DNA of 64,000 nucleotides. Source: Paenibacillus sp. FSL H8-0079 (GTDB lineage: Bacteria; Bacillota; Bacilli; Paenibacillales; Paenibacillaceae). The notes under the pieces are model-generated. The model had not been told where the DNA came from. It saw only the letters and a program-made list of their open reading frames with translations, and did not search any database. The DNA lies in NCBI RefSeq assembly GCF_037991315.1, contig NZ_CP150300.1:682001-746000 (forward strand), in the 5' to 3' direction. Both the position numbers and the translations under genes were made by a program. This document shows, piece after piece, positions 5,600 to 36,715 of the stretch. Each line of letters opens with the position of its first letter. Position 1 is the stretch's first letter.

Positions 5600-5752
5600 T
5601 GTTGAGGTAAGGTTTTTCTCCAATGGAGTTGGTCATTTGGAATATAAAGGTTGTTTTTATGTTCCGGTTGCGCTACTCTGTTATGGACGGCCCAGCGGGG
5701 CCAGCTTCATTGAATATGAACTGCGGCGTGTGTATGCCGTAACTTGTTAACG

Positions 5753-5849
5753 TTACTGGGGGAGTCCGAATTGTCCGGACTGAGACGGAATCGCATGAGA
5801 TTCCGGACCCTTTGCACCTGATCTGGATCATACCAGCGTAGGGAAGTAA
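5753..5849 (+). promoter_or_regulatory. TPP riboswitch (THI element) upstream of thiC
   Basis: The conserved blocks of the thiamin-pyrophosphate aptamer are all present: GGGGGAGTCC, ACTGAGA, GACCCTTTGCACCTGATC, TGGATCATACCAGCGTAG and GGGAAGT. The ends TTACT (5753-5757) and AGTAA (5845-5849) pair as P1. Binding of TPP would favour the terminator about 95 nt downstream and lower thiC expression when thiamin is plentiful. Confidence 0.95.
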
Positions 5850-5943
5850 TCGGCGATATGACCACAACCACCACATGATGTGACCCTTGTAGAGCTCCGT
5901 TAAGGAGCTGCATAAAGGTGCATTATTGGTGTTGGACATTAAA

Positions 5944-25613: not shown

Positions 25614-25668
25614 GTTTATTCAACTCATCCATGCTTTAATAACCTGTAATTGTACATTAACGGAGGGG

Positions 25669-25777
25669 ACAGAAAGCATCTGAAGAAGCGGAGCGCTCGC
25701 CTTTATCACCGGATTTCTCCCTTGGAAAAGGGAATCAAAGAAATCAGGGGATAACAGCGATCGAAAGATGATTCTGT
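25669..25777 (+). ncRNA. Structured element, copy 1
   Basis: An outer stem of ACAGAA..CATCT (25669-25681) with AGATG.TTCTGT (25766-25777) encloses a GGAGCG box, GCCTTT, and a hairpin of GATTTC+TCCC (25712-25721) with GGGA + bulge ATCAAA + GAAATC (25730-25745), then AACAGCG. The same architecture recurs at 36121-36233. It ends 65 nt before the 96-aa gene. Role unknown: a repeat, a small RNA or a leader element. Confidence 0.6.
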
Positions 25778-25842
25778 ACACGAAGTGAAAGTACAATAGT
25801 ATAGGTAACGCAGGTATGACTTTAATTAAAGGAGCGAAAACA

Positions 25843-26133
25843 ATGGATGAATCCAAAGAACTGGAACGACGGCTCAGTGATATGCTGACGGAAGGGGACA
25901 TGGAAGAGTCCGGCGACACCGATCAGCGTGAACGCCAGCTGATTCCTCCCAAATATGAAGTGCGGATTCAGACGGAACGTGATCCAATCGTCGAGGAAAC
26001 GTTAAAGTACCGGAAGTTGGCACGTGAAGTGGACGATCGTTATGATCGCTATCTGGAGCGAACTACCGGGAACAAACTGGAGAGCGACATGGATCATTCG
26101 AATTCTAAAGACCCGGATAAGCCGCAATCTTAA
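25843..26133 (+). CDS. Small acidic hypothetical protein
   Basis: 96 residues from ATG 25843, which has AAAGGAG 8 nt upstream; a longer frame from 25816 lacks one. Very acidic and hydrophilic N terminus (MDESKELERRLSDML), then PPKYEVRIQTERDPIVEE, with a basic coil in the middle (REVDDRYDRYLER). No membrane segment. I do not recognise the family. It stands alone after structured element copy 1 and ends at a terminator. Confidence 0.6.
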   Translation: MDESKELERRLSDMLTEGDMEESGDTDQRERQLIPPKYEVRIQTERDPIVEETLKYRKLAREVDDRYDRYLERTTGNKLESDMDHSNSKDPDKPQS

Positions 26134-35928: not shown

Positions 35929-36120
35929 GAGAGTAATCGTAGAAGTTGAACAGGACTTGATTTTACTACTCTAGGAGATAACTTACCGCAGGATTTTAAG
36001 TCCTGTGCGTCTGTATTTACGCGAAGCGAGTTAAACGAATTAACGAGCCAGCAAAGTTGCCCAGCGAGTAGCGAAGGCAATAATCTTTTAAATCATTCCG
36101 GCGAGCGTTGCAGCGAAGGA
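35929..36120. other. Spacer with inverted repeats
   Basis: CAGGACTT (35951-35958) pairs with AAGTCCTG (35998-36005), and AGAGTA with TACTCT lies inside. The rest is a run of GCGAAGC/AGCGAG-type words. No gene is seen. Confidence 0.5.
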
Positions 36121-36233
36121 GGGCGGAATCGGGTAGAGGGAGCGAAGTGTCCGCCTTTGGAGTGGGATTTCCCCTGCTGAGGGGGAATGAATAGAAATCC
36201 CGAGCCAACAGCGGCCCACGGCCCGATCCGCCC
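36121..36233 (+). ncRNA. Structured element, copy 2
   Basis: Outer stem GGGCGGA(A)TCGGG (36121-36133) with CCCGATCCGCCC (36222-36233). Inside are GGAGCG, GCCTTT and a hairpin GGGATTTCCCC / GGGG + GAATGAATA + GAAATCCC, then AACAGCG. It shares this plan with copy 1 at 25669-25777, though the outer stems differ in sequence. It ends 65 nt before the next gene. Confidence 0.65.
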
Positions 36234-36298
36234 GCCGAAGCGACTGCATCGCGAGCCGCCCCCACGTTTTTAATTTAATTATTGGAGGATATACTCAA

Positions 36299-36715
36299 AT
36301 GACATTGGACCCGACCAAACAAGGTACTTCAGCCCATCAGACGGCTCCAGCAGCTACAGGTCACACCTATTGGGTGATTCCGGATGGCTATATCCCGCCG
36401 AAGAGTAGCGGCACACTGGAGAGTCATGAGAGCATCTGCGTATTAAACACAGGTGCAACAGATGCGGAGCTGCACATCACGATCTATTTTGAAGATAGAG
36501 ATCCACTTGAAGATATCGTCGCTGAAGTGCCAGCAAGAAGGACCAAACATATTCGTACCGCATCGCTCCGATCCGGAGAGCAGTCTATCCCGTCAGGCGT
36601 ACCTTATGCCATCACTGTTTCGAGCAACATCCCTGTCATCATCCAGTACAGCCGCTTGGACACGACCCAGCCTGAATTGGCGTTAATGAGCGTAATTGCT
36701 TTTCCCATCGCATAG
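36299..36715 (+). CDS. ASRT-family small protein
   Basis: 138 residues, soluble, all-beta. Sequence blocks WVIPDGYIPPKSSGTLESHESICVLN, TIYFEDRDPLEDI, VPARRTKHIR and VIIQYSRLDTTQPELALMS match the Anabaena sensory rhodopsin transducer (ASRT) superfamily. Bacterial members without rhodopsin are often beside sugar genes and are proposed to bind small molecules or sugars; the rhodopsin link does not apply here. GGAGG precedes the ATG. It follows the pectin esterase by 370 nt, so it may be a separate transcript with the structured element in its leader. Confidence 0.75.
   Translation: MTLDPTKQGTSAHQTAPAATGHTYWVIPDGYIPPKSSGTLESHESICVLNTGATDAELHITIYFEDRDPLEDIVAEVPARRTKHIRTASLRSGEQSIPSGVPYAITVSSNIPVIIQYSRLDTTQPELALMSVIAFPIA

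Follow-up and report, generated by a model that had tools for sequence, protein, structure and literature searches.

A large family of interspersed repeats in Paenibacillus with a covarying structured core and, in many copies, IS630-like ends

Extragenic palindromes of the REP/RAYT type, among which REPs measure 20-40 bp, and hairpins derived from IS200/IS605 elements are thought to be moved in trans. A second kind of small repeat is represented by RUP of Streptococcus pneumoniae, which, as described in PMC3049150, has terminal inverted repeats similar to those of a host IS630-type element and is over-represented between convergent genes. According to the same source, BOX of S. pneumoniae is a modular stem-loop repeat that is transcribed as an extension of operons and can affect neighbouring genes; its movement by a host insertion sequence has been proposed, and its ends have been compared with those of ISSpn2 (PMC3049150). 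For the bcr repeats of Bacillus cereus, 84 of 165 and 62 of 155 copies were reported in mRNA in two strains (PMC3446304), bcr1 was given up to 130 copies, and some bcr repeats a predicted RNA structure (PMC3446304, PMC6542083). The accounts of these repeats link their mobility to a TTTAT motif (PMC6542083) and describe the first bcr element as restricted to the B. cereus group (PMC3446304, PMC6542083). The available text of a survey of stem-loop repeat families makes no mention of Paenibacillus (PMC2267715).

RUP, BOX and the bcr repeats appear to be the closest kinds to the Paenibacillus repeat analysed here, a likeness that concerns their descriptions and not their sequences. Like RUP as described, the Paenibacillus repeat is small and interspersed, and has IS630-like ends and a predicted RNA fold (PMC3049150); unlike RUP, it has a core with conserved loops and with stems that covary over the bacterial family, and it lies mostly sense to genes. 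With BOX, as far as the published account goes, it shares the organisation of a modular stem-loop repeat (PMC3049150); nevertheless, the modules and the ends differ, and the Paenibacillus repeat has one cassette at one of two positions. The bcr repeats resemble it by description as interspersed repeats of Bacillales, and differ from it in their TTTAT-linked mobility and in the confinement of the first bcr element to the B. cereus group.

The repeat was noticed in a window of 64,000 nucleotides of Paenibacillus sp. FSL H8-0079 (contig NZ_CP150300.1, positions 682,001 to 746,000), to which all positions below refer unless another locus is named; the syntenic region is also present in relatives such as Paenibacillus xylanexedens, P. 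amylolyticus and P. taichungensis. An initial annotation of this DNA had reported a structured element present twice, with several words in the same order, and these were found by direct reading at GGAGCG 25690-25695, GATTTC 25712-25717, GAAATC 25740-25745 and AACAGCG 25753-25759 in copy A, and at 36139-36144, 36166-36171, 36194-36199 and 36207-36213, respectively, in copy B. The two places had been located correctly, with limits that were slightly narrow: the covariance model R1 places the whole unit of copy A at 25659..25791 (plus strand, 133 nt, 138.1 bits) and that of the GC-rich copy B at 36112..36246 (plus strand, 135 nt, 116.3 bits), and pairing runs on past the unit. Copy A lies between a gene of the inositol monophosphatase family (PF00459; 24741..25613, plus) and a gene with no Pfam family (25843..26133, plus), the start of which was set at a conserved ATG after AGGAG at 25843 and not at the 25816 of the ORF caller. 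Copy B precedes a gene of the Anabaena sensory rhodopsin transducer family (PF07100; 36299..36715, plus), whose start codon is 52 nt past the unit.

In copy B, the outer stem P1 is predicted to form between GGGCGGAATCGGG (36121..36133) and CCCGATCCGCCC (36222..36233), followed on the 5' side by the internal-loop strand GGAGCGAAGTGT (36139..36150; family consensus AGCGNAGCGY) and by the inner stem P2, whose arms CCGCCTTTGGAGTGGGATTTC (36151..36171) and GAAATCCCGAGCCAACAGCGG (36194..36214) are given alike by the letters, the fold and the covariance model. The plus strand of copy A has the same arrangement, with P1 arms ACAGAAAGCATCT (25669..25681) and AGATGATTCTGT (25766..25777) read from the letters and the predicted fold, the internal-loop strand GGAGCGC (25690..25696), and P2 arms at 25697..25717 and 25740..25760 on which letters, fold and covariance model again agree. 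Beyond the model, TTGTAC (25650..25655) pairs with GTACAA (25791..25796) and extends the outer stem of copy A, with pairs that differ between orthologues. The pairing of both inner hairpins despite changed bases was as the initial annotation had described it, and the outer stems, which differ in sequence, yet pair in the predicted folds (ACAGAA..CATCT with AGATG.TTCTGT in copy A, GGGCGGAATCGGG with CCCGATCCGCCC in copy B). The fold of 36114-36240 has a z of -4.95, equalled by 0 of 200 dinucleotide shuffles, and that of 25655-25790 a z of -2.82, equalled by 1 of 200; the minus strands also fold strongly (z -4.13 for the copy B region and -3.32 for that of copy A), because the unit is nearly palindromic. 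A search of the window with the covariance model (E up to 10) returned copies A and B on the plus strand and two weaker minus-strand matches at the same places, and a three-word gapped pattern derived from copy B matched copy B alone (0.00 expected), copy A being outside the gap range of the pattern. The sole Rfam match in the window at gathering scores is a TPP riboswitch at 5748-5861 (plus strand, 79.9 bits).

Copies A and B are members of a large family of interspersed repeats found in Paenibacillus and related bacteria. The search for further copies by covariance model that the initial annotation had proposed, extended to the strain's own genome and to relatives, returned many. The 6.71-Mb genome of the strain contains at least 149 matches to R1, a model built from ten of its own copies, among 150 scored candidates, and more copies adjoin the loci analysed; an independent word pattern found 121 places in the genome (control 0), and the gapped pattern GATTTC..GAAATC..AACAGCG gave 12 matches (control pattern 0). 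The tandem triplet at C1:4640871-4641366 (L137), which is represented in two of the 148 own loci, consists of three direct copies with a period of ~182 bp; a similar triplet occurs in genome G010, and a tandem pair in G040. By covariance-model search, 43 of 59 relatives carry the repeat. All 36 sampled genomes of the genus were positive, the own genome included, with 1 to at least 57 matches each, and in other families of the same order the repeat is sporadic (7 of 23 genomes). Under strict filters, the class sample gave 34 positives in 348 genomes (31 from the own family, one from the order and two from the class; best 9 candidates per genome scored) and the phylum sample 5 in 299, all from the own family (best 11 candidates per genome scored). 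No match was obtained in plasmid and phage records with the one class-1 copy used as query. No Rfam 15 family matched the repeat when the whole window was searched at gathering scores, when 36080-36300 was searched at E up to 1, or when 10 loci of the repeat were searched at E up to 0.1, and no report of the family was found in the open-access papers searched.

In the common core of ~125-135 nt, the long outer stem P1 leads through an internal loop to the inner stem P2, with an apical loop beyond it. The stems vary widely between copies, P1 being very variable in sequence, and the two strands of the internal loop, GRAGRAGCG(N)AGCGYUCGCCUUU and the opposite AACAGCGAUCGGA, are largely conserved. 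A hairpin cassette of ~39 nt, TAAAAGCTTTC...AAGCATACGC, may be present in the internal-loop region at one of two places (for example in L173, L176 and L183); it was scored in 45 of the 148 own copies, after UCGCC in 24, in the AGCG bulge in 15, and unclassified in 6. An alternative hairpin GCGRA/YUCGC, judged by eye only, was not adopted: copy L163 alters both sides of the base of P2 and leaves the upstream GCGA unchanged. Pairs within the own genome were counted in alignment A3 (115 matches in 100 of the 148 loci), leaving out alignment A4, whose 53 matches are largely longer, cassette-bearing copies. In the 108 distinct rows, 95.2% of the cells were paired (86.9 when shuffled) and two-sided change was seen in 32 of 37 pairs and 340 cells (63.8 when shuffled), with a covariation score of 0.292 against 0.140 for shuffled and at most 0.066 for slid alignments. 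In 45 diverse copies, 94.6% of the cells were paired (shuffled 67.0), with two-sided change in 35 of 37 pairs and 468 cells (shuffled 134.5) and a score of 0.748 (shuffled 0.228, slid at most 0.146). Because both alignments were fitted to the model, pairing is favoured in them; the shuffled and slid controls meet this in part. Covariation beyond the controls is what is expected of a structured RNA; together with the many copies, the two-sided changes support the earlier suggestion of selection on an RNA or on hairpin DNA, and neither outcome that would have spoken against it, a lack of further copies or stems that lose their pairing, was seen.

Outside the core, many copies elsewhere in the genome bear CTATATAARTTGAACTAA and its inverse, a feature not noticed in the initial annotation. 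Allowing at most 4 substitutions, these ends were recognised on both sides in 59 of the 148 copies, on one side in 30 and on neither in 59, against 0.1, 3.8 and 144.2 for shuffled motifs. This cut-off was adopted because at a laxer one of 6 substitutions, where 82 copies had both ends, 42 had one and 24 had neither, the shuffled motif gave 18.5 both-sided copies by chance. The 50 copies with strict 18-base ends have unit lengths of either 190-197 bp (36 copies) or 222-235 bp (14 copies). Copy A has no IS630-type ends at up to 6 substitutions and copy B none at up to 5, and 57 other own loci are also without recognised ends. The genome has two resident insertion sequences of 1173 bp, at 341-1513 of locus L226 and 344-1516 of locus L227, in which each end is one substitution from the end motif of the repeat, and which encode a 174-residue HTH protein and a 227-residue DDE_3 protein in overlapping frames; the element is of the IS630 type. 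The core is absent from both. A third, diverged match to the protein (68% identical, C1:2388849-2389517) adjoins another such end. Relatives of the DDE_3 protein were found in 7 of 20 genomes of the genus, in contrast with the repeat, present in 36 of the 36 sampled; therefore, the present insertion sequence does not account for all genomes. As in a MITE, the unit is short, of narrow length and without a gene of its own (ORFs overlap 5 of the 148 copies), and the end-bearing copies, unlike copies A and B, share terminal inverted repeats with a host insertion sequence. Both filled and empty orthologous sites were seen, and three filled sites gave no clean target duplication, their junctions being too diverged for one to be called. 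A Y1 transposase of the IS200/IS605 or REP/RAYT type was rejected as the mobiliser, given 0 matches to PF01797 in the own genome; 21 of 36 genomes of the genus are positive for this family. In addition to this difference from REPs, the Paenibacillus unit is longer than their 20-40 bp. In genome G051, the outer arms of four loci (L249, L258, L265 and L271) are built, as judged by eye, on GTGTTCAAAAA-like sequence and not on IS630-type ends, a hint that the core may be packaged by another transposon or between other ends.

The genomic context was analysed for the 148 own loci with a home-made gene caller, and 143 remained after dropping five with an overlapping ORF. Both neighbouring genes are sense to the element in 92 of them and antisense in 15, whereas 22 lie in divergent and 14 in convergent gaps. 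The excess of sense over antisense is found whether a copy has both ends (38:3), a single end (21:5) or none (33:7), and also in genomes G022, G024 and G025 (23:7) and in 38 further loci (20:4), two sets that may include mutual orthologues and are not fully independent. Taking the origin near 0 and the terminus near 3.35 Mb, the ratio is 83:8 for leading-strand genes and 9:7 for lagging-strand genes, and the 36 copies in divergent or convergent gaps run with the presumed replication fork in 25 cases and against it in 11; both the direction of the genes and that of replication seem to matter for orientation. The median distance from the end of the model to the called sense start is ~57 nt, and in the lax end-bearing set (71 copies) the medians are 28.5 nt to the called sense start and 61 nt from the upstream sense stop; these are rough values, since the start codons are those of the caller and some fall inside the element. 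Scanning 12 downstream proteins revealed no common family or pathway. Between 12 nt upstream and 15 nt downstream of the model end, a run of five T occurs in just 7 of the 148 own copies, which rules against an intrinsic terminator. The one copy found in genome G021 (L248) precedes a prepilin peptidase gene and has a terminator-like hairpin downstream of it.

The initial annotation had left the choice between RNA and hairpin DNA undecided, and the mispairs left in the stems bear on it. What reads as a G-T mispair on one strand reads as A-C on the opposite strand; selection on one single strand predicts more G-T than A-C, and symmetry at the level of DNA predicts equal numbers. The test used a sequence-only alignment of 36 strict cassette-free copies, with pairs of G-T consensus left out. 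In the ends, 34 G-T and 36 A-C mispairs were counted, against 16 and 0 in P1 and 8 and 2 in P2; the contrast between P1 plus P2 (24:2) and the ends has a Fisher p of 5e-5. Strand-biased mutation is controlled for, because the ends lie in the same copies. On the other hand, the apical stem, which is of variable length, poorly aligned, and was treated separately only once the list of pairs had been seen, does not follow this pattern (17:36); when it is included in the core together with the short helix P1b, the comparison becomes 57:41 versus 34:36 (p 0.27), and an earlier, coarser split that lumped P2 with the apical stem had given 51:49. The lax-end set gave 30:2 for the core and 45:52 for the ends, and a 3-substitution set, with column borders shifted by one, 29:5 versus 26:25 (p 0.001); structure-fitted counts were 163:17, of which 71 come from one conserved G-U pair, and 59:19 in alignment A6. 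The ends would thus behave as double-stranded DNA around a core that folds as a single strand, most likely RNA, which is the likeliest single strand because of the sense bias; the same strand in the form of single-stranded DNA would account for the asymmetry of P1 and P2 as well.

The history of the two sites of the window was followed in 27 syntenic loci. At the 25.7 kb site, 26 of these could be compared (L092 could not): seven have a full-length model match, L086 a cassette-bearing copy and L076 a truncated one, L075, L097 and L081 show deletions or remnants, and 14 have no element, in most of them the inositol monophosphatase stop being followed by ~30 bp and the next gene. In ten sequences of this site, two-sided change was seen in 6 of 36 pairs, and the mispairs were 11:2. 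The stem extension of copy A reads TTGTAC/GTACAA in the window, TTGTAC/GTGCAA in L079 and TTGCAC/GTGCAA in L080, a series expected of a compensating change with a G-U pair as intermediate. At the 36.1 kb site, the element is present in 19 of the 27 loci; seven of the other eight have the downstream gene and no model match, and L078 has no gene match. Counting the window copy, the window and the 19 loci contain 33 copies at this site, one to three in tandem, and the tandem copies that precede the sensory rhodopsin transducer gene (L072-L098) have a period of ~250 bp. Copy B is 79-98% identical to same-site copies of other species and 72% identical to its nearest other copy in the own genome, and the adjoining gene has an identity of 73-93% across the same loci. 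When the best copy of each locus, ignoring gaps, was compared with the local blastn identity of the downstream coding gene, the element was the more conserved of the two in all 17 loci measured (92.5% versus 75.5% in L077); third-position values, partly distorted by differences in length, were set aside. Two-sided variation was found in only 2 of 35 pairs here, with mispairs of 27:20; therefore, this site shows conservation of sequence and not covariation. The absence of the element from many orthologous sites indicates that single copies are dispensable.

The family, its structure, the contrast in mispairs between P1/P2 and the ends, the sense bias and the conservation of one copy in place are results, and they bear on several explanations. 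That the repeat is nothing but selfish DNA, a MITE whose palindromic form reflects only a need for hairpin DNA in its mobility and whose RNA strand is meaningless, seems to us unlikely, also in the variant in which the single-stranded DNA of one strand matters during movement. Such an element would have IS630-type ends above control, narrow unit lengths and presence or absence at orthologous sites, and the effect of replication direction in divergent and convergent gaps (25:11) and the loss of the asymmetry once the apical stem is counted agree with it as well. Nevertheless, it does not lead one to expect mispairs in P1 and P2 that are almost only G-T on one strand, with symmetric ends in the same copies, nor a sense bias of 92:15 that persists in copies without ends (33:7), nor an identity of copy B across species that exceeds that of the neighbouring gene in 17 of 17 loci; the core, moreover, is absent from both copies of the insertion sequence. 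Neutral template switching, by which palindrome correction keeps the arms complementary and mimics covariation, would produce what the family has, long imperfect palindromes with arms that differ between copies yet pair; it also predicts equal G-T and A-C leftovers, against the 24:2 of P1 and P2 beside ends at 34:36, and leaves the conserved loop sequence unexplained, so that we regard it as the least probable of the accounts given here.

Among the explanations at the RNA level, a riboswitch-type cis-regulatory element sensing one ligand is improbable given at least 149 copies, unrelated genes among the 12 scanned downstream, an antisense gene downstream in 29 of 143 copies and T-runs of five near the model end in just 7 of 148, in spite of the mostly sense orientation, the median of ~57 nt from model end to called sense start, the combination of conserved loops with variable stems and the lack of an Rfam match. 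Even less probable is that the copies are independent genes for trans-acting small RNAs that multiplied: the terminator-like hairpin after the one copy found in G021 would suit such genes, whereas 141 of 148 own copies lack a run of five T near the model end, and the copies are sense and close to start codons. The explanation that we favour, with moderate confidence, is an IS630-mobilised repeat with a structured RNA that acts in cis within mRNA leaders. The position of the core between IS-like inverted ends in 59 of 148 copies suggests that an IS630-type transposase acting in trans has, most likely, spread the copies as DNA; those without ends, copies A and B included, would be older and have decayed ends, or would have moved by another route. 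The core would probably be transcribed as part of an mRNA, in its leader or between cistrons, and then fold; the folded core would have a cis effect on that transcript, most likely on its processing, stability or translation.

A bolder proposal, which we put forward tentatively and with considerable doubt, is that the core is a functional structured RNA of a new class, whose conserved loops underlie a tertiary fold and whose cassette helix is swappable, spread through the Paenibacillaceae between ends recognised by a transposase, and that some copies, such as that before the sensory rhodopsin transducer gene, have been domesticated as cis-acting leaders and selected more strongly than the neighbouring protein gene. 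Whether a bacterial interspersed repeat is called a junk DNA hairpin or an RNA element has often been decided on thin evidence, and this family offers an inner control within the same copies, in which the ends drift like DNA and the stems seem to drift like RNA. Since there are at least 149 copies in one genome and natural empty sites in relatives, the RNA role is directly testable, and the annotation of a genus with uses in agriculture and biotechnology would gain a common, uncatalogued motif.
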